A stretch of 40,406 nucleotides of DNA. Source: Lachnospiraceae bacterium. Its GTDB lineage: Bacteria > Bacillota > Clostridia > Lachnospirales > Lachnospiraceae. The stretch is from the NCBI GenBank assembly GCA_011959805.1, contig BLMC01000020.1:1-40406 (forward strand), in the 5' to 3' direction. Under the pieces are notes generated by a model. The model was not told the origin of the DNA, searched no databases, and saw only the letters and a list, made by a program, of their open reading frames with translations. Of this stretch, positions 8,184 to 39,613 are shown one piece after another (position 1 is the first letter of the stretch; each line of letters opens with the position of its first letter). Made by a program: the position numbers and the translations under genes.

Positions 8184-8260
8184 TTATTATTTTATTCTTT
8201 TTTTAGAATATTAAGTAAAAAATTTTTTCTTTCTCTACCTGCTGACTATTTTCCTTTGAA

Positions 8261-8473
8261 CACCCATGTGCAATCGAGTAGGGAAGGTTACTTCCCCTCC
8301 TCGCGCGCCGGGCACTCGTCAGCGAACCGATAAATCGGTTTGATGACAAATTTCACTTAGGTGCCCGTGTATAATCGAGTAGGGAAGGTTACTTCCCCTA
8401 CTCGCCGCGCCGGGCACCCGTCAGCGAACCGATGAATCGGTTTGATGACGAATTTCACTTGGGTGCCCGTGTG
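8261..8473. repeat. Two 101-bp tandem repeats with nested palindromes
   Basis: Units of about 101 bp (8272-8372 and 8373-8473, preceded by a partial junction at 8261-8271) are nearly identical. Each contains a GTAGGGAAG/CTTCCCCTAC-type hairpin, an AACCGAT/ATCGGTT-type hairpin and, in the second unit, a 9-bp outer stem CGGGCACCC/GGGTGCCCG (8412-8420 with 8461-8469). The DNA is much richer in G and C than its surroundings and carries no convincing gene. It lies between the terminator of the polysaccharide locus and the MMPL promoter. Confidence 0.8.
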
Positions 8474-16047: not shown

Positions 16048-16092
16048 GTAGTCTTTTCCTTTCTTCCATAATATAGCCTTCGGATGATGTTT

Positions 16093-17232
16093 CTACCGGG
16101 TTACAACTCCCGGTGGATTTTTTCCGCTGATATAGAAGGTTTCCATTTTCCTAGCAAGCTTTTGCACATCAAAATCCTTTTCGGCAATCACGGCGCGCAT
16201 ATCCTCGCGCACCAGTGCTTTTTTACTGTTTCTCATAACCTCACTCGCCCAACTTGCTGCTGGTTCCTCAATACTCTTATAAGTAACCAAATCGGTCAGT
16301 GCTACCTCTTTTGTGACCTTATCTGACACTAGACACCGCAATCCAGAAGCCTGCGCCTCCGCCACACTGCCAGGAAGTCCTTCAAACAGTGACGGAAAAA
16401 CAAAATAGTCAAACGCCTGATAATACCGCTCCACATCAAAACGATTGCTTAGAAACTGCACTTTGTCCGCCAAACCCAACCGATTTACCTTATCTTGAAT
16501 TTCGGATTTTAACTTGCCATCTCCAATTAATACCAACGCCGCATCATCGCGTATTTTACACAACTGCGCAAAAATATCTATGAGATACTGATGATTTTTC
16601 ATAAAACCAAATCTGCCAACATGGCCTACAACAAATTTTTCATCAAGCCCTAGTTCCTTTCGCATCTGTTGTCGCACTTTGTCATTAAAAACAAAACGTT
16701 GTGTATCAATCGCATTGGGAATTGTCCAAACTTTGCCCGCTTCAATCCAGTTTTTACCGTAGACTGCCTCTGCCGCCTCTGTAGAGCAAGTAAAACAATA
16801 ATCTGTCTTGTACTTTAATCGGCCTCGCAATATTTTTGTCGCAAGTCCTTTCAATCCTTTATCCACACCAGCGCTTCGCGCATGTGCAATAGTTACAGGG
16901 ATTCCAGCCTTTTTGGCAATTGGCAAATAGATGGCGGCAGTGCTTGTCATATGTCCTTGCACAGCCACAAATTCTCTATGTTCTCCAAAAAATCTGTGAA
17001 GTGCTTTGCGATAGGACAAGATATTGAACACTCGAAAACGTGGGACATGATAAATTCTGCCGCCAAGCTGCTGTATTTCTGCATTGTATTGTCCTATTTT
17101 ATCCGTATGCACAAGAAAATCAAACTGAACCTTATTTCTATCTATTGCTTGGTACAGCTCCATTATCCTGCTCTCTGCCCCGCCAAGATTTGTTGTCCCA
17201 AGAACATTTAATACTCTTACCGGATCTGTCAT
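16093..17232 (-). CDS. GT4 glycosyltransferase (EpsF/capsular type)
   Basis: 379 residues. The N-terminus VLNVLGTTNLGGAES is typical of EpsF-like GT4 enzymes. The C-terminal half has the EGLPGSVAEAQASG nucleotide-binding segment. I chose ATG at 17232 because AGAGG lies about 7 nt upstream and the family begins at this point. A longer frame back to 17298 would run into the end of the deacetylase gene and adds a 22-residue tail without homologous character. It lies between the deacetylase (17 bp) and the FemAB-like gene (45 bp). The donor sugar is unknown. Confidence 0.88.
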   Translation of the reverse strand: MTDPVRVLNVLGTTNLGGAESRIMELYQAIDRNKVQFDFLVHTDKIGQYNAEIQQLGGRIYHVPRFRVFNILSYRKALHRFFGEHREFVAVQGHMTSTAAIYLPIAKKAGIPVTIAHARSAGVDKGLKGLATKILRGRLKYKTDYCFTCSTEAAEAVYGKNWIEAGKVWTIPNAIDTQRFVFNDKVRQQMRKELGLDEKFVVGHVGRFGFMKNHQYLIDIFAQLCKIRDDAALVLIGDGKLKSEIQDKVNRLGLADKVQFLSNRFDVERYYQAFDYFVFPSLFEGLPGSVAEAQASGLRCLVSDKVTKEVALTDLVTYKSIEEPAASWASEVMRNSKKALVREDMRAVIAEKDFDVQKLARKMETFYISGKNPPGVVTR

Positions 17233-20457: not shown

Positions 20458-21761
20458 TATATATATCCTGCGTCAATATACTCTTTTTTATCCAGGATTC
20501 CCTTCAAATCTGTCAATACTTTTGCCTTGCCATTCTCTGCATAGAACGCATTCATCGCTGTCATATCAAGCGATTTATAAGACTCATGTGCCACCGCAAG
20601 AATCACTGCATCACAACCACGAATGTCCGCCATCCGTGTAAATTCTATTCCATAAAGGCGTTTTGCCTCGTCGGCATCCGCATTGTCATCTGTCACCTGC
20701 GCGGTAATACCATATTCCTTTAATTCATTATAAATATCAATAATCTTAGTATTTCTCGTATCTGGACAATTTTCCTTAAAAGTAAAACCAAGAATCGCCA
20801 CCTTTGCACTCTTTACAGGAATATCTGCCCGTATTAAATTTTTTACTAAATTCTCTGCTACATATTTTCCCATGTCATCATTGATGCGACGCCCAGAAAG
20901 AATAATCTGCGAATGGTATCCAAGCTGTTCGGCCTTGTAGGTCAAATAATAAGGGTCCACCCCTATGCAATGACCACCCACAAGTCCTGGCTGGAAATTT
21001 AAGAAGTTCCACTTAGTTCCTGCTGCTGCAAGAACAGATTTTGTGTCAATCCCCATCTTATTAAAAATAATCGAAAGTTCATTCATAAAAGCAATGTTAA
21101 TATCCCGCTGACTGTTCTCAATCACTTTCGCCGCCTCTGCAACCTTGATGGACTCTGCCCGATATACTCCAGCTTCCACCACAAGTTCATACACATGTGC
21201 AATCTCATCAAGAGTTTCCTTGTCCATACCAGACACAATCTTTGTGATGGTTTCCAGACGATGAACTTTATCCCCTGGATTAATACGCTCCGGCGAGTAC
21301 CCAATTTTAAAATCTACACCGCACTTTAAGCCAGACTCTTTTTCCAAGATTGGCACACAAACATCCTCTGTAACGCCTGGATATACAGTAGACTCAAACA
21401 CAACAATAGAACCTTTGGTAAGATTTTGTCCTAAAATGCGGCTTGCTCCTTCAACAGGGGTCAAATCTGGCGTGTGATCATCATTGACAGGGGTTGGAAC
21501 TGCCACAATATGAAACTTTGCTTCCTTTAATTTGGAAGGGTCTGCAGTAAATTCTACAGTAGTGTTTTTAATCACTGCATCTCCCACCTCATTTGTAGGG
21601 TCCACACCAGATTGATAAAGATTAATCTTCGCCGCATTAAGGTCAAATCCTACTACTTTAATCTTTTTGGCAAATGCGACAGCAATTGGCATTCCCACAT
21701 AGCCAAGGCCAACCAGTGATAATTTTTCTTTTCCACTTACAATCTCTTCATATAAACTCAT
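20445..21761 (-). CDS. tviB: UDP-N-acetylhexosamine 6-dehydrogenase, WbpO/TviB-like
   Basis: 438 residues, UDP-glucose/GDP-mannose dehydrogenase family. GLGYVGMP near the N-terminus binds [15 protein letters not shown] carries the catalytic cysteine (Cys265). The C-terminal domain has the conserved [15 protein letters not shown]. The sequence fits the branch that oxidises UDP-GlcNAc or UDP-GalNAc to the uronic acid (TviB, WbpO, CapL). Adjacent genes are a PglA-like transferase upstream (TAATG junction, RBS AAAGGAG) and a WbpP/TviC-like epimerase two genes downstream. The likely product is UDP-GalNAcA or UDP-GlcNAcA. Confidence 0.9.
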
Positions 21762-22864
21762 TATAATTTATACTCCTTTCCTGCGCTCTGTATTTCTTCT
21801 ATATAAGCTTGTATAACCTTTTTTCGGTCAAATTCACGCTCCATCTTTTCTCTAGCACATCTTCCCATCTGCACACGCTCCTTGTAAGATAAATTCAAAA
21901 AGCGAACGATTGTATCATACAATGCCTCTTGATTTTTGGGCGGAAATCCAAATCCAGTCACGCCTTCCGTAAATCCTTCCCTACACCCCGGAATTTGCGT
22001 GGCCAAGACTGGTCTACCGTTTGCTGCCGCCTCAAGAATCACGTTTGACATTCCTTCGTGATAGCTAGGCATCACCACTGCGGACGCCTTTTGATAAAAT
22101 GAGGTGATATTCTTCTGATATCCAATAAGCTCTAAAACGCCTTCCGCTTGCGCGGATTCTATTTTTTGCTTATAATCATCCTCATAATTTCCTACCAATT
22201 GAAACAGTACCTTCGGATATTCTTTGTGAATGGCCTTTGCTGCATACAACAGCTCATCAATCCCTTTCTCTTTCATAATTCTACCGACATACAGAAATAT
22301 CATGTGCTCTTCTTCTAAAGGATATTCCTTAAAACAATGTCTGTCAAGATTCACCCCAGAACCTGGCACCAGTCTACTCTTTTTCCCACAAATGCGAGAC
22401 TTTGCAAAAATCCTTTGATTTTCTTTATTTTGAAAAAATACGCACGCTGCGTTCTTCAATGCAATCTGATAAAGCACAGTCACAATCTTTTGTATTATTC
22501 CGCCATTTTCAAAGGCGGAGCCAAGCCCAGTAATATTTGCGATATAAGGCACACGCTGTAATCGGCAGCAAATATTTCCATAAATATTTGGTTTAATGGT
22601 GTATGTGAGAACTATCTTTGGTTTGATATGCCAAATCAGTTTCCAATAGCTACACAAAAGTTTTAAGTCCCGCGCCGGATTGACACCGCGCCGATCAATT
22701 GCTGTATAGTACATTTTACAGCCTTCCTGTGCCAACTGTGGCACTTTCTCTCCATCTGGAAGGCTGATATGTACTTCATACCTTTTTAGCAATTCCAAAA
22801 TTAATTCATTCCTAAAATCATAAAGCCCACTTGCAGAGTTTGCCAGAATCAATATCTTGTTCAT
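21761..22864 (-). CDS. GT4 glycosyltransferase, PglA-like
   Basis: 367 residues, GT-B fold. IKPNIYGN and NITGLGSAF in the N-terminal half are shared with PglA/WbnH-type alpha-1,3-N-acetylgalactosaminyltransferases, which add the second sugar to undecaprenyl-PP-linked diNAcBac or GlcNAc. [14 protein letters not shown] is the E-x7-E motif. Its place right after the PglC- and ATP-grasp-like genes fits that step. I start at ATG 22864, with AAAAAGGAAAC about 9 nt upstream. A longer frame to 22921 is coded by the inserted mobile element and is not original. Before that insertion this ATG overlapped the previous stop as ATGA. Confidence 0.88.
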
Positions 22865-22882
22865 ATGAATGTTTCCTTTTTG

Positions 22883-23036
22883 GTAACATTTCAGCCTTCG
22901 GCTTCCTGTTACAGGCATCAAGCTATGCAGAATCGTTTCGCGATGGCTTGATGCATCTCAACCACTACGTATTCCTACGTGGCTTATATAAGCCATAATT
23001 TGCAACATAGTGCAAAGTCCTAGGCTGAACTGTTAC
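22883..23036. mobile_element. MITE-like element, copy 1 (154 bp), with 8-bp target duplication
   Basis: The ends are 14-bp imperfect inverted repeats (plus-strand left end GTAACATTTCAGCC, right end GGCTGAACTGTTAC). The element is flanked by perfect 8-bp direct repeats CCTTTTTG (22875-22882 and 23037-23044), a target-site duplication. Inside is a 9-bp stem (22915-22923 with 22946-22954) and smaller hairpins. There is no coding capacity. It matches copy 2 at 35441-35596 at both ends and in a central block with GTATTCCTACG. It supplies the last five codons and stop of the ATP-grasp gene. Confidence 0.9.
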
Positions 23037-24012
23037 CCTTTTTGGCCTCTTCTGCATCTAACACCATAATCTCACAATATTTCATCATAACCTGATTCAC
23101 TAAATAAGGGGTGGTCCTGATTGGATTAGCAATGCCCTGAAGATTTTTTTTAATCAATGTCATATGGTCAGCACCACAACTATATGCATGGGGATAACCA
23201 CCTCCAAACCGTGGATTTACCTCCGAAAAATAATACACACCATCCTGCTCAAACAAATCAATATCAATTTGCCCTGTAAATCCATTCTCTTTGGCAAACT
23301 GCACAATTTGTCTATTTAACTTTTCATCATAAAAGGATATTGCCTTGTCTGTCTCACCAGCACGCATCACTAACTTCTTTTTGGTAAAAATAGACACAAC
23401 TTCCCTGCTCACCAAATCAATATAGACATCTGCTCCAATTTCCTGTCCAGTCATATATTCTTGTATAATCATTTCTTCACCATGCGAGAATAAAAATGCT
23501 GCTGTTTCCCAATCTTGTGCTTTTGCAATTTGTATGCTGGCACTACCTTTCATTGGCTTTACAAACACTGGAAACGCAATCTCACCTTGATTCAAGGCTC
23601 GACGAAATTCCTCCAAGGATACATATGTTTTTACACAGGGATATTTATGTTCCTTCATCCAACAATACAGCTCCCATTTATTTAACGTGCGTTCACACAG
23701 TTTGTATTCGGAGCCAACTACTGTCACTCCCAGCGCTTCAAATTGGTCTTTGTGCGCTGCAATCAGCGATAATTCTGGATCAATGAGCGAGAGTACGCCT
23801 GTGATGGATTCTTTTCTACAGATGTTATAAAGAACATCCAGATATCCCGGTTCTGTAATCCGCGGCACAATATAATGCGCATCTGCCTCGTACAGCGCAG
23901 GCGCATAAGGACTGCAATCTGTACAGATAATTCTTCCTTCTCCCTCAAATGTCTTCCTAAAATATTGAACCACTTTATCTCTTGTCCCACAGCTTAAGAT
24001 TAAAAGATTCAT
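23020..24012 (-). CDS. ATP-grasp ligase (carbamoyl-phosphate-synthase-like), C-terminus altered by MITE
   Basis: 330 residues. The N-terminal Rossmann-like domain (LILSCGTRDKVVQYF) is followed by an ATP-grasp core with FPVFVKPMKGSAS and, near residue 270, FSEVNPRFGGGYP, which holds the metal-binding Glu and Asn. The family joins a carboxylic acid to an amine using ATP. In Neisseria, the PglB2 protein fuses a PglC-type transferase to an ATP-grasp domain that adds glycerate to the 4-amine. Here the same two activities are neighbouring genes overlapping by 4 bp (ATGA). The last residues GNSSA and the TAG stop come from the inserted mobile element. The reconstructed original end reads KKETFI and stops at the next gene's start. 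Confidence 0.9.
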   Translation of the reverse strand: MNLLILSCGTRDKVVQYFRKTFEGEGRIICTDCSPYAPALYEADAHYIVPRITEPGYLDVLYNICRKESITGVLSLIDPELSLIAAHKDQFEALGVTVVGSEYKLCERTLNKWELYCWMKEHKYPCVKTYVSLEEFRRALNQGEIAFPVFVKPMKGSASIQIAKAQDWETAAFLFSHGEEMIIQEYMTGQEIGADVYIDLVSREVVSIFTKKKLVMRAGETDKAISFYDEKLNRQIVQFAKENGFTGQIDIDLFEQDGVYYFSEVNPRFGGGYPHAYSCGADHMTLIKKNLQGIANPIRTTPYLVNQVMMKYCEIMVLDAEEAKKGNSSA

Positions 24013-30618: not shown

Positions 30619-30633
30619 CAAAAGCTTTCTCTG

Positions 30634-31602
30634 TTACTTTTCACGATCTTTATTGTCATCCGAACAATAAGGTGATTCTCCATCTGTCTCTTCGCGGATT
30701 ACATACTGCGGAGAATTATTAATACTGATATAAATCCTTCCAATATACTCCCCGATTAGTCCTAACATAATCATAAGCATACCACCAATAAAAACAATTG
30801 CCGCCATTAGAGAACTAAATCCCATTGGCACTGCCGGATTTACAATTTTCTTAATAACAGTATAAATTCCATAGAGAAAACCACCACCTGCAAAAGTAAC
30901 ACCTGTAATGGTAGCAATCCTAAGTGGCAAAATCGAAAATGCTGTGAAACCATTAAACCAAAGCGCCATCAACTTTTTCATTGTGTAGCCAGAAGCACCC
31001 ACTTCTCGACTTCTGTGTCGCACAGGAACATTTGTAATATTCCTTGTAGAACGCAGCACCAAACCAATAATATAAGGATAACTATTCTCATATTCCAACA
31101 TGCTGTCAACCACAAACCGCCTTGCCGCAAAATAGCTTGTCAAATGCAAATTTTTAGGTTTTCCAAGCATTATCCTTGTCATAATATCGTTCATCCAAGT
31201 TCCAAAATTGCGAAATGCACTATGTTTTTTATTGTCATAGCTAGCATAGACTACATCACTGCCATCCTCTATCCCGCGAATCAATTTCCCAACTTCATTT
31301 GCTGGTGTCTGTCCATCGTCATCTAGGCATACCACAATATCCCCATCTGCCTTGCGAAGCCCCGCCATCAGCGCCGCATGTTGTCCAAAATTCTTTGCAA
31401 GACTGATTCCCGATATATTTTGATACCTTTTGGCAAGCGCAGTAATCACCTCGTAAGTATCATCTGGCGAACAGTCATTTACCAAAAAAATGTCATACTC
31501 ATATGCTGTCATATTTTGCATGGTATCTCTTATTTCTGCCACGACTCCCTCAAGCGTCTTTGCACTTCGGTAACAGGGAATCACAAAACTTATTTTCCTC
31601 AT
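30634..31602 (-). CDS. GT2 polyprenyl-phosphate glycosyltransferase, ArnC/DPM1-like
   Basis: 322 residues. SFVIPCYRSAKTL and LVNDCSPDDT open a GT-A fold, and CLDDDGQTP near 92 gives the metal-binding Asp motif. Two C-terminal membrane helices (about 225-250 and 262-290) are followed by GEYIGRIY, as in ArnC and GtrB. The family moves a sugar from a nucleotide to undecaprenyl phosphate for use outside the membrane. Together with the RffA-like transaminase, the GNAT enzyme and the membrane protein upstream it could form an extracytoplasmic glycan-decoration module. RBS AAGGA lies 9 nt before ATG. The 158 bp upstream hold no convincing gene or promoter. Confidence 0.9.
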   Translation of the reverse strand: MRKISFVIPCYRSAKTLEGVVAEIRDTMQNMTAYEYDIFLVNDCSPDDTYEVITALAKRYQNISGISLAKNFGQHAALMAGLRKADGDIVVCLDDDGQTPANEVGKLIRGIEDGSDVVYASYDNKKHSAFRNFGTWMNDIMTRIMLGKPKNLHLTSYFAARRFVVDSMLEYENSYPYIIGLVLRSTRNITNVPVRHRSREVGASGYTMKKLMALWFNGFTAFSILPLRIATITGVTFAGGGFLYGIYTVIKKIVNPAVPMGFSSLMAAIVFIGGMLMIMLGLIGEYIGRIYISINNSPQYVIREETDGESPYCSDDNKDREK

Positions 31603-35412: not shown

Positions 35413-35440
35413 GGTTTTGGCATTAATATGCATTCAATTC

Positions 35441-35596
35441 ATAACAGTTCAGCCTTCGGCTTCCTGTTACGGGCATCAAGCCATGCAAAACCACTTCGTG
35501 GTGTCAAAGCCACGTACCGTGGCTTGATGCATCTCAATCACTGCGTATTCCTACGGACTTTGCAGCGTAGTGCAAAGTCCTAGGCTGAACTGTTAC
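35441..35596. mobile_element. MITE-like element, copy 2 (156 bp), with 8-bp target duplication
   Basis: The ends are inverted repeats (plus-strand left end ATAACAGTTCAGCC, right end GGCTGAACTGTTAC) with perfect 8-bp direct repeats TTCAATTC at 35433-35440 and 35597-35604. Internal stems are 11 bp (35473-35483 with 35520-35530) and 10 bp (35555-35564 with 35571-35580). There is no open reading frame of note. The insertion is one base inside the stop codon of the 35604-38477 gene, and the duplication rebuilt the TAG. Confidence 0.9.
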
Positions 35597-35603
35597 TTCA
35601 ATT

Positions 35604-38477
35604 CTAGTACAAACCATGCTCATCTCTACTTTGAACAAACACACGATACTCTTCATTTTCAAAACATTGCGTGTATCCATTTTCTCTAGCAAATTGCATT
35701 ATCAGAACATATTTTTGATAAGCCATTCCTTCCATTTCTGTTAAGTCCTCTGTTCCCGAGCGTCCAAATATTATAACAGGTGTTTCTTTTAATAAATTCT
35801 CATTCGATAATTTGCCAAGTGATTCTGCCAACAACGCTATACCATTGGAATCCAAGTCTGGCCAAGTAGTAAAAAGGGCAGGTTCCATCTCAAATAAATA
35901 TGCTAATGCTGGAATATTTCCATACAATATCACCTGTTTCTCATTTAATCCATTCTGATATAGATATGCATCTAGTTCTTCCAGTGCTGTTTTCTTCTTT
36001 GCTGTTGTTCGCAATCCTTTTCCGTTGCTGCTGCACTGTAATTCCAACGGTTGTCCATTGTTGCGCGCATCAGTATCGTGAAATACAAAACCAATTCCAA
36101 AAAAAATACTTTGAACAGTCACACACACAAATACCATTTTGAATACCAGTCGAAATGCAAAACCTGTTGTGCCTACAATCCGACCTTTTTGAACAGCCTT
36201 ACGCGCCATCAATATTGAGACTGGAAACACTAGAAAGAGATTGTTGATAATTGGATAAAGCCCATTATTGCTCCCAAGTGGCGTAATCAGTATTATAATG
36301 GGTAAAAACACTGCCCATAACCTTAAATCTTGGTTTGTTTTTTGGTTTATCAAACACCAAATACAGAAACAAAATACAATTAGCAGATAGACGGTTATCC
36401 ACTTGTACATACTAAAATATTCCGCATAGTTAAAATTGAACATTCCCCTGCCATAACAGAAACGCAAAAGCACAAGGAACAAAAATAAATAAAATATTTC
36501 AAGTACATGTGTTACTTTGGGAGATAATGTTTGATTTCTTTCAAGTTTTTGAACAAAATAAAATACAATCATACCGATTCCCATAAATACCACAAACAAT
36601 AACAGCCATCCGCTATACCGAATGTAGTCCTCAAACATCGCATTAACCATTGCGATTGGCTTATAGTCTGTTGCTTGGTCTGTCATACCAAACAAGGAAG
36701 TAACCATCTGTGGATACGCAGTGACACCATAACGTACACTGATAATTGTTAATGGCACAAAAATTCCCGCTAGATAACCACCAATACAATATAGAGTACG
36801 TACACAAAGCTGCCGAAGCCATGTATTGTTATCGCCACGTTTCCAAAAGCAATCACACCACACTGGTAAAATCAATGCCATATACGTAATATTGGGCATT
36901 CTAACAGCAACACAAAACCCTAAAATAACACCTGCAACGATAAAATTTCTCTGTTTTCCATCTTGGATTGCCGTATATAAAATAATTACTGCTATTGTCA
37001 TAGCAAGATAGCCAAGATAATGGTACAAAACTACAACTGGTGCCCAACAAAGTGATAGTGCTGTCAACTCCGCTATAAACAACATTATTCCTATCCAGCG
37101 CCGTTTTTTTCCATAACGATTCCATAAAAACAGGTACACCCACGCTGCCACACCCCCGATTAGCAGACCGCAATATACATTCATGCCAATCCAACTTCCT
37201 CCACCAGGAAGTTTTGAGAAAAATACGCCTGTCACATTTGCAAGGTAAGTTGCTAACTTCCACACAGGATTTAATACATCAAAATATCGATAATTGCCAA
37301 GTGCATAGCCTGCATCCATAACATCTAGCCCAACCGTAGCATGACGCAATGGATAGAGTAATAAAATCAATGCTGGAAGAATTGTTTTTCTGCCTTTTTG
37401 TCGAATCCGCTCTATCACTGTGCAGACCAAATATACAGTGAAAACACTAAAAACCATATGCACTAAAAATCCTATAATGGATTTTTCCACCTGCTCTTCA
37501 CAGTGTAACCATCTAGGCCATGCGTAGCGGATATTAAGATGTTCATGAATAAGATAAACACCAAATGCTGCCCCAGAAAATAACTCAATTGGTTTCCGAA
37601 ACCGCTCTAGGAAAATTGCTTCCTTTTTCTGCTCCTTTTTATTTTCTGCAAACAGCAAAAACAGTCCCACTGCACCAGTGTAACAAAATAAAAAATTATA
37701 CGTATACCCATACTGTGCCATTTTTCCAAGGCTTCCCGTTCTAAGAAAGATGAATCGAATCGACAAAAAGGAAAGAAAGATTGCTGCCACACTGACAAGA
37801 TATAATATTGCTGCCTTCCATCTTTTTTCAACCAGACATGCGCCATAACGTCTTAGATATGCTCCTGTCAGATAAAGAACGATAAACCAAAGGCTGTCAT
37901 AACCATATTTATCCCACGGAAGCTGCATAGGAATCACTGTCTTTGACACACTAAACACCAGCAAAAGCCCTAATATCAAATATTTCGTTTCCCGCTGATC
38001 CAGATAAGAAATCCCCGCATTGAGAAAAGGCATTAGCAAGCACAGAACAATATAAGACGACGCAAACCAATAATGTTCTGTCACAATCGGAAAACAATAG
38101 GAGAAAAATTTATAGAGGTCAAATTCCTGTATACCAGCGATTAACGCACCACAGCCAAAAAGCATCGAATAAAAAAACACTTGTTTCCATATTTTAATAG
38201 GCCTTCTCAACACTTCCCAAAAGGTCAATTTCTTTCCATAGATTCCACTTCCATGTACATTTACGCCAAAATATCCGCTAATCAACACATACACATTGAC
38301 CGATACAATACAGAATGCTTCCATCAGCCATGCTGTATAACCTGTTGCTGTCATATCCGTTCTTATAGGGTCGCCAAGGATACCTCCTTTGCTCAAATAA
38401 TGCAGACTTACAATCATTAACATTGCTATGATGCGCAGCAACTCATAATTTAACTGCCGCTTTTTCGCTGTTGCCAT
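35604..38477 (-). CDS. Fusion of acyltransferase-3 domain with a second polytopic membrane domain
   Basis: 957 residues. Residues about 10-365 form an acyltransferase-3 (OafA-like) domain: NYELLRIIAMLMIVSLHYLSKGG with the conserved His, SVNVYVLISGYFG, HYWFASSYIVL and VYLIHEHLNIRY. From about 370 to 790 there is another set of helices, with an outside loop GLDVMDAGYALGNYRYF, then a soluble C-terminal domain (about 800-957). The first part probably acetylates the glycan or a precursor. The second resembles GT-C-like proteins and is of unknown function. ATG 38477 has GAGGGAG close upstream; a GTG at 38501 overlapping the previous stop is the alternative. Acyltransferase-3 proteins are usually about 350-650 residues, so this fusion is unusual. 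Confidence 0.85.
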   Translation of the reverse strand: MATAKKRQLNYELLRIIAMLMIVSLHYLSKGGILGDPIRTDMTATGYTAWLMEAFCIVSVNVYVLISGYFGVNVHGSGIYGKKLTFWEVLRRPIKIWKQVFFYSMLFGCGALIAGIQEFDLYKFFSYCFPIVTEHYWFASSYIVLCLLMPFLNAGISYLDQRETKYLILGLLLVFSVSKTVIPMQLPWDKYGYDSLWFIVLYLTGAYLRRYGACLVEKRWKAAILYLVSVAAIFLSFLSIRFIFLRTGSLGKMAQYGYTYNFLFCYTGAVGLFLLFAENKKEQKKEAIFLERFRKPIELFSGAAFGVYLIHEHLNIRYAWPRWLHCEEQVEKSIIGFLVHMVFSVFTVYLVCTVIERIRQKGRKTILPALILLLYPLRHATVGLDVMDAGYALGNYRYFDVLNPVWKLATYLANVTGVFFSKLPGGGSWIGMNVYCGLLIGGVAAWVYLFLWNRYGKKRRWIGIMLFIAELTALSLCWAPVVVLYHYLGYLAMTIAVIILYTAIQDGKQRNFIVAGVILGFCVAVRMPNITYMALILPVWCDCFWKRGDNNTWLRQLCVRTLYCIGGYLAGIFVPLTIISVRYGVTAYPQMVTSLFGMTDQATDYKPIAMVNAMFEDYIRYSGWLLLFVVFMGIGMIVFYFVQKLERNQTLSPKVTHVLEIFYLFLFLVLLRFCYGRGMFNFNYAEYFSMYKWITVYLLIVFCFCIWCLINQKTNQDLRLWAVFLPIIILITPLGSNNGLYPIINNLFLVFPVSILMARKAVQKGRIVGTTGFAFRLVFKMVFVCVTVQSIFFGIGFVFHDTDARNNGQPLELQCSSNGKGLRTTAKKKTALEELDAYLYQNGLNEKQVILYGNIPALAYLFEMEPALFTTWPDLDSNGIALLAESLGKLSNENLLKETPVIIFGRSGTEDLTEMEGMAYQKYVLIMQFARENGYTQCFENEEYRVFVQSRDEHGLY

Positions 38478-38497
38478 TCTCTCCCTCACTTTCGTAG

Positions 38498-39613
38498 TCA
38501 CTGCGATAGCAGCAGTTCCCCAAGCTGTTTTGCAATACGATAGGCTCCTTTTGTATCAATCAATTCCTGTTCTTGTCTGTATAGACTCTCTCTATACTGT
38601 TTATCCTGAATACATTGTCTGAGTGCTTCAAGTACACATTCTGTTGCTTTTTCAGGTTCTTTGGCAATATTTCCTGCATTGACAATATCAGTTAGCCTCT
38701 CTAACTCCTCAGCACCTTGCCTTTGATTTTCCGCAAAATAAAAGACAATCATTGGAACGCCTAACGAACTAACTTCATAAATGGTACTTCCTGTCGCTGT
38801 GATAACCACATCACTGTGTAAAAACAAACTGCGCATATCCTTTACCTTTTCATGAATCTGAATCCGAAATGTTGATTTTTTCTCAAAGTCTTGGTATCTA
38901 CATTTCAATTCCTCTGCAAATTGATTCAAAGGACCACTAATTAAATGCAATGTGATTTCTTGTTTTGCCATGTTATAATCCCCTAACAGTGCATCGACAA
39001 GCATAGCCATGACAAAATATGGATCGCTTCCTCCTGTTGTGATTGTCACATTCGTCACACACTCTGCAACAGAGTAAACACATGGTTCTTGAAACATACT
39101 GCGAAGTGGCATATATTTTGCTCCTAACAACGTCTTTCGAGGATATTTGTCCACTGTCCGACTTGTGGTCTCCACTGGATTATATTGTTGCGTCAACTGC
39201 GGTGCATAGAGATTATAATTGATTAACAAGTCAACTGGATACACTTGCCCCATATCCTCAAAACACGCTGTCCTTGCAATTCTGCCAAGAGCAAGATAAT
39301 ATGCAATTTCTGCCTGATAGCTGTCCACCAACACAATATTTTGTTGCTTCTTCTCATTGCTTTTAAATATTGGTTTCCCTTGGAAAATAGTATCCAACAA
39401 TGTAAGCTCACACATCATATCTCGATAGTCTGTATGCAGAACAATGACCTGAAATCCTCTCTCCTCTATTAATGAACGACATTCTTCGTCCGCCAAAATA
39501 AAAATAGGCGGAGGCAAGCAGTCTATCCCTGCTGCTGCCTCCGCAACTGACAAGCAACGCATCACATGCCCTATACCAATCTTTGTATTCCCATCTACAC
39601 GAATATAAAACAT
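38498..39613 (-). CDS. pseG: PseG/SpsG-like nucleotide-sugar hydrolase
   Basis: 371 residues, GT-B-like fold. The N-terminus YIRVDGNTKIGIGHVMRCLSVA matches PseG, with the catalytic His (here His16). TTGGSDPYF and TATGSTIYEVSSLGVP form the nucleotide-binding C-terminal half. PseG cleaves UDP from 2,4-diacetamido-2,4,6-trideoxy-L-altrose in the pseudaminic acid pathway. It is somewhat longer than typical PseG (about 270-350). PseB, PseC, PseI and PseF are not in the window, so it may belong to a pathway continuing past the right edge, or be a relative with another substrate. The ATG follows the PIG-L TAG directly, and AGGAGG lies 12 nt upstream. Confidence 0.82.
   Translation of the reverse strand: MFYIRVDGNTKIGIGHVMRCLSVAEAAAGIDCLPPPIFILADEECRSLIEERGFQVIVLHTDYRDMMCELTLLDTIFQGKPIFKSNEKKQQNIVLVDSYQAEIAYYLALGRIARTACFEDMGQVYPVDLLINYNLYAPQLTQQYNPVETTSRTVDKYPRKTLLGAKYMPLRSMFQEPCVYSVAECVTNVTITTGGSDPYFVMAMLVDALLGDYNMAKQEITLHLISGPLNQFAEELKCRYQDFEKKSTFRIQIHEKVKDMRSLFLHSDVVITATGSTIYEVSSLGVPMIVFYFAENQRQGAEELERLTDIVNAGNIAKEPEKATECVLEALRQCIQDKQYRESLYRQEQELIDTKGAYRIAKQLGELLLSQ

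Follow-up and report, generated by a model that had tools for sequence, protein, structure and literature searches.

An IS66-type MITE in the stop/start overlap between an ATP-grasp gene and a glycosyltransferase gene of a gut Lachnospiraceae bacterium

The window, by which we mean the whole stretch of 40,406 nucleotides that was analysed, comes from a gut bacterium and carries two sugar-pathway genes that flank a short element and are both whole. The upstream gene (23020..24012, minus strand) encodes an ATP-grasp protein of 330 aa (PylC-like_N and ATP-grasp_3), and its last five codons and TAG stop codon lie in the element or straddle its border. The downstream gene (21761..22864, minus strand) encodes a GT4 glycosyltransferase, whose ATG at 22862-22864 overlapped the stop codon of the ATP-grasp gene before the insertion. 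An earlier note on this DNA, made from the letters of the window, had called this second gene PglA-like; the support for this name goes only as far as a GT4 glycosyltransferase, all NCBIfam scores being far below their cut-offs. The glycosyltransferase frame is open upstream as far as a TTG at 22921, within the element; the glycosyltransferases of the relatives align from the ATG at 22864.

The element itself is 154 bp long (22883..23036, minus strand). It reads GTAACA...TGTTAC on the minus strand, with ends GTAACAGTTCAGCC and GGCTGAAATGTTAC of 14 bp each that differ by one mismatch, and is bounded by two perfect 8-bp repeats CAAAAAGG. The upstream copy of this target duplication (23037..23044, minus strand) falls within the final ATP-grasp codons, and the downstream copy (22875..22882, minus strand) provides the AAGG of the glycosyltransferase Shine-Dalgarno sequence AAAAAGGAAAC. 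A 9-bp repeat CCTTTTTGG is also present at the borders, and was not preferred because its ninth base fits neither the symmetrical element nor the 8-bp duplications of other copies. There is no ORF of 80 aa within the 154 bp, and a short, non-coding sequence with 14-bp terminal inverted repeats is what is expected of a MITE. As single-stranded DNA the region has a fold of -35 kcal/mol, with z = -5.9 relative to shuffles, and the predicted fold of the element as RNA is -57.4 kcal/mol. A known structured RNA was rejected as its identity, as the window has no Rfam match at the gathering threshold. A plasmid- or phage-borne copy was also rejected, since neither collection has a match at E 1e-5. The element was likewise not taken to carry an intrinsic terminator or a promoter, as a scan of 22600-23300 gave four sites and all of them are outside it.

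The ATP-grasp protein now ends with ...EEAKK-GNSSA before the TAG, and the distance from this stop to the next start is 155 nt. The first added codon, GGT, straddles the repeat and the element. When the element and one repeat are taken out, the minus strand reads GCC AAA AAG GAA ACA TTC ATA TGA with the next ATG inside, and the rebuilt empty allele encodes EAKKETFI. A search of 144 genomes, that of the window included, gave two relatives, G016 and G037, as the nearest (85% protein identity), and both are without the element at this junction: the two flank matches overlap by 14 bp, and would be about 150 bp apart if the element were present. Their junction is GAG CCA AAG AAG GAA ACG CCA ATA TGA, which gives the C-terminus EPKKETPI and an ATGA overlap (-4), in the same frame and length as the rebuilt allele of the window. 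The ATP-grasp protein is identical in G016 and G037, so the two are close to one witness of the empty site. The collinearity of G037 with the window extends from about 0.2 to 38.5 kb; the main blocks are 78-85% identical and the element is missing. Such agreement across about 38 kb disfavours a misassembled junction in the window.

The earlier note had described a MITE inserted exactly in an ATGA stop/start overlap, and its coordinates are exact to the base, with empty sites in G016 and G037. Its expected KKETFI-type end with ATGA has its counterpart in the EPKKETPI and ATGA of the relatives; the GNSSA and TAG supplied by the element, the 155 nt between the genes and the ribosome-binding site saved by the downstream repeat can all be read in the window. 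The note had also proposed to look at the syntenic junctions of relatives, which gave uninterrupted alleles with the overlap as reconstructed, and neither of the two outcomes that it had named as contrary was seen, that is, a different junction in the relatives or the element in all of them.

The element belongs to a repeat family. Its own genome (4.25 Mb assembled in 431 contigs, 86.5% complete) has 26 family matches, some of which are pieces of one copy, and matches are found in 24 of 38 genus genomes, its own included. Our set of copies, drawn from a selection of loci and so not exhaustive, has 80 distinct members of 90-180 bp in which both ends can be recognised; most are 133-175 bp long. 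The flanking octamers agree at 8/8 positions in 40 copies, at 7/8 in 17 and at fewer in 23, and these 23 reflect age or mis-set ends. In 2000 trials with shuffled octamer pairing, copies with 7-8/8 averaged 0.9 with a maximum of 7, against 57 observed. Target duplications of constant length (8/8 at the window junction, 7-8/8 in 57/80 copies), many copies at different sites and empty sites in relatives were all found, as in a MITE. The loci L098 and L113 are one insertion present in two genomes, and L099 and L153 are probably also a single insertion across two genomes, as they look like one gene in G016 and G037. A sharp target consensus was rejected, as the octamers of 50 copies are mainly A/T-enriched. 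The copy nearest to the element of the window is in G032 (92%).

The window has a second family copy of 156 bp (35441..35596, minus strand) with the perfect 8-bp duplication TTCAATTC at 35433-35440 and 35597-35604. It sits seven bases past the stop codon of the gene 35604-38501, and no family match is found opposite it in 39 kb of G037 covering that place. Other repeats were observed in the region. In the same gene cluster of G037 (L150 and L151, C78:121000-160000) there is a different palindromic repeat of the type GTTACTATTCACGG ... CCGTGAAAAGTAAC; the window has opposite these (16076-16093, 30630-30680, 35440-35600) either none or a short end-like stretch GTTACTTTTCACGA near 30634. At about 8240-8470 the window contains two near-identical stretches CAATCGAGTAGGGAAGGTTACTTCCCCT ... 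GGTGCCCGTGT in tandem, another small repeat family; a single place in L150 (984-1038), far from the collinear position, has matches to parts of the two.

The genes of IS66 are tnpA, tnpB and tnpC, and the 154-bp element is not an IS66 insertion sequence proper, as it encodes no IS66 genes and no transposase. No IS66 transposase (PF03050) was found in its own genome, which is 86.5% complete, and PF03050 is present in 18 of 38 genus genomes. Among the weakest PF03050 matches is L083 of G033 (483-923), a piece of 441 bp bounded by GTAACAGTTCAGTC and GGCTGAACTGTTAC, with the C-terminus of an IS66 transposase encoded on its reverse strand. It has no matching target duplication; it is an IS66 deletion derivative with MITE-type ends, and possibly a step between IS66 and MITE. 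When this remnant was used as query against 397 genomes of the bacterial family, 26 had matches. At the best four loci (L118, L119, L120 and L144; G458 twice, G393 and G406, from three other genera), with 74-79% identity to the remnant, the exact 14-bp end lies a few tens of bases past the transposase stop codon; of the 30 loci scanned, the remaining 26 have no exact copy of this end. An autonomous element flanked by both ends was not found, each of six loci examined having a single end, and MITEs and IS66 loci have little in common beyond 14-17 terminal bases.

According to passages of PMC11946415, IS66 ends begin with GTAAGCG and make 8-bp repeats, and 8-bp repeats are also given for two Paracoccus IS66 elements in passages of PMC3281130. 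By the standard in PMC11946415 the present element, with its GTAA ends and 8-bp duplication, is IS66-derived; it shares these two features with IS66 insertion sequences and differs from them in having no transposase or coding sequence, only the terminal bases being common to both. Because the 14-bp end adjoins IS66-type transposase genes and the published ends and duplications match, we call it an IS66-type MITE, and we infer that it was mobilised in trans by an IS66-type transposase.

What the insertion did to expression is less direct. As read from the sequence, it replaced ETFI by GNSSA at the end of the upstream protein, turned a 4-nt overlap into a strongly folded gap of 155 nt, and kept the glycosyltransferase Shine-Dalgarno sequence only because 8 bp were doubled. 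Reinitiation-type coupling would then be lost and the second gene would now be initiated independently. Reinitiation assays in Haloferax and E. coli, as given in PMC10666635, found that a gap of about 20 nt is enough to abolish coupling almost completely, so that loss of translational coupling at the window junction is likely; the introduction of that paper cites opposite results, with coupling over gaps of 150-850 nt. A changed product ratio of the two genes is plausible.

The insertion may instead be neutral for expression, any spacing being tolerated and only the last residues changed. In 16 same-genus genomes with both genes side by side the gaps, measured to the start aligning with the ATG of the window, are -4 (2 genomes), -1 (2), +1 (6), and +7, +16, +24, +31, +59 and +103 nt (1 each). 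Judged by this spread of -4 to +103 nt, coupling at the junction is not conserved in the genus, which suggests that uncoupled forms are tolerated. The ribosome-binding site of the glycosyltransferase is also intact: before its start, the best anti-Shine-Dalgarno pairing is -5.8 kcal/mol with and without the element. Nor is the site less accessible in the predicted fold, where it is unpaired at 0.76 with the element, against 0.63 when the empty site is rebuilt and 0.47 for G037. Against neutrality, 10 of the 16 genomes keep -4, -1 or +1, and the assays above point to a loss of coupling, opposite results being cited for 150-850 nt. The matter is nearly balanced, and we lean slightly towards an effect. 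In the genome with the 103-nt gap (L041, G036:C161) the junction is widened by TTTGAGCTTCTG-like units that are repeated imperfectly in tandem, which is a different route to a wide gap.

The position of the family at gene ends was analysed with the 57 copies that have good duplications, for which empty alleles were rebuilt and ORFs of at least 100 codons were taken by a simple rule. Fifteen of the 57 sites are inside an ORF, and 13 of these (12 independent) are 1-44 nt before the ORF end; the two away from ORF ends are L110 and L163. Around sites outside ORFs, 14 of the 32 3' ends that face the site lie within 16 nt of it against 1,556/14,648 control positions (10.6%; nominal Fisher p 2e-6), and 1 of the 50 starts that face the site does so against 1,726/20,903 controls (nominal Fisher p 0.12), where the control positions are neighbours and not independent. 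Selection against harmful insertions would produce a similar clustering at gene 3' ends, and a target preference is one reading only. A strong orientation bias was rejected: with 11/80 copies not orientable, facing gene ends within 60 nt run the same way as the element in 31 cases and opposite in 18. Genes running into the element do so in one frame in 11/17 cases (nominal p = 0.008, found after the fact), in a set of 18 rows from which L113 was dropped as the same insertion as L098, and which includes poor duplications as well as L099 and L153, likely one gene. This frame bias is only a lead. By reading, the TAA of the end GTAA is used as stop codon in 7 of the 11 genes of the favoured frame.

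A second overlap was hit in G032. There the family copy at L174 (1069-1238, G032:C73) lies between genes that we label VWA-like and AAA-ATPase-like from reading of their translations and not from a family search. The duplicated target TTTGGAGG contains a Shine-Dalgarno-like GGAGG. Both flanks are found in many genus genomes. Five of these junctions were read, and the element is absent from all five: in two, the end ...AAC AAG TGA contains a GTG, which makes a stop/start overlap of the GTGA type, and the others have gaps or a different insert. The G032 site rebuilt without the copy has a GTGA overlap too, so that insertion in a stop/start overlap has arisen at least twice.

To study the hairpin, 50 copies were aligned; left out of the 80 were those outside 130-160 bp, those that could not be oriented, and another four loci and five rows. 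Both sides have changed in 11 of the 31 pairs of the consensus fold. Compensatory cells number 52, where shuffles give 16.3 +/- 2.9 and sliding the partners gives 2-8, though relatedness alone can exceed shuffles. The tip of the hairpin alternates between CCAC/GTGG, TCGC/GCGA and CCGC/GCGG. These changes support a hairpin that is maintained, as RNA or as DNA, and it may also act on mRNA processing.

One may then ask if selection keeps the repeat chiefly as a functional RNA or a module of gene 3' ends (a processing site, an mRNA stabiliser or a transcription terminator), with mobility secondary. The covariation and the crowding of copies at gene 3' ends speak for it, but DNA hairpins can also yield compensatory changes, and the purging of harmful insertions can also yield such clustering. 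The window is without an Rfam match, the element has no terminator-like or promoter-like site, and the orientation bias of 31 to 18 is weak. We consider this account improbable as the main explanation.

The time of the insertion was placed with a tree of 21 ATP-grasp rows (L054, L064, L065 and loci repeating contigs already included were omitted), where the window groups with G016 and G037 with support 100/99. Therefore the insertion is placed on the window's own branch, and the event that the earlier note had called dated is dated only in relative terms, after the split from G016/G037. In 16 genus genomes the search placed the two genes next to each other, and none of these has the element at the junction. 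That the element was ancestral there and lost precisely in the relatives is hardly credible: precise excision is possible in principle and even the closest relatives found are about 15% different in protein, but several independent precise losses would be required by the 16/16 junctions without element and the place of the window beside G016/G037, and the perfect repeats match a young insertion. We hold with high confidence that an IS66-family transposase acting in trans would have put the 154-bp MITE into the last ATP-grasp codons, 11 bases before the stop, duplicating 8 bp on the branch to the source species after the G016/G037 split.

MITEs in operons and at gene ends are already known, and what is unusual here is the clean and recurrent insertion context. 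Chunjie, a MITE of Geobacter uraniireducens described in a review (PMC10969869), is also inserted in an operon, by the title of its paper without disturbing the structure; it is 178-235 bp long against 154 bp here. QMITE1 and QMITE2 of Coxiella are similar in lying at gene 3' ends and in overlapping or extending C-termini, and the functional genes hit by QMITEs bear them at their 3' ends. QMITE2 has repeats of 7-11 nt, and the sequences are unlike the present family, with no link to IS66 in the passages of the source (PMC5896051). ERIC and NEMIS/Correia are also short hairpin-forming mobile repeats found in transcripts, for which effects on mRNA processing or stability are reported (PMC2229807); their ends and hosts differ from those of the present family. 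MITECca01 of Cardinium is an IS-derived MITE that occurs with a decayed copy of its parent in which, as in L083, the 3' part of the transposase gene is preserved; the parent is of the IS982 family and, unlike here, intact parental copies are in the same genome (passages of PMC9769881). No IS66-type MITE family was found in the part of the literature that was searched, and the word IS66 is absent from the MITE review PMC10969869.

The junction offers a natural experiment: one overlapping gene pair exists with and without the insertion, its surroundings are largely collinear over 38 kb, and the ribosome-binding site is kept only via the duplication. The gene-end clustering and the covarying hairpins can be tested genus-wide, as 24/38 genomes have matches. 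A wider and rather doubtful idea is that the family forms a mobile gene-end module: IS66-type MITEs would prefer stop codons, often supply the stop, add a conserved multi-hairpin 3' tail, and in 4-nt stop/start overlaps split a coupled unit into two independently translated ones through the 8-bp duplication, with neither gene lost. If it is true, the recurrent landings in the window and at the GTGA junction of G032 would represent a repeated route of operon uncoupling via transposition.
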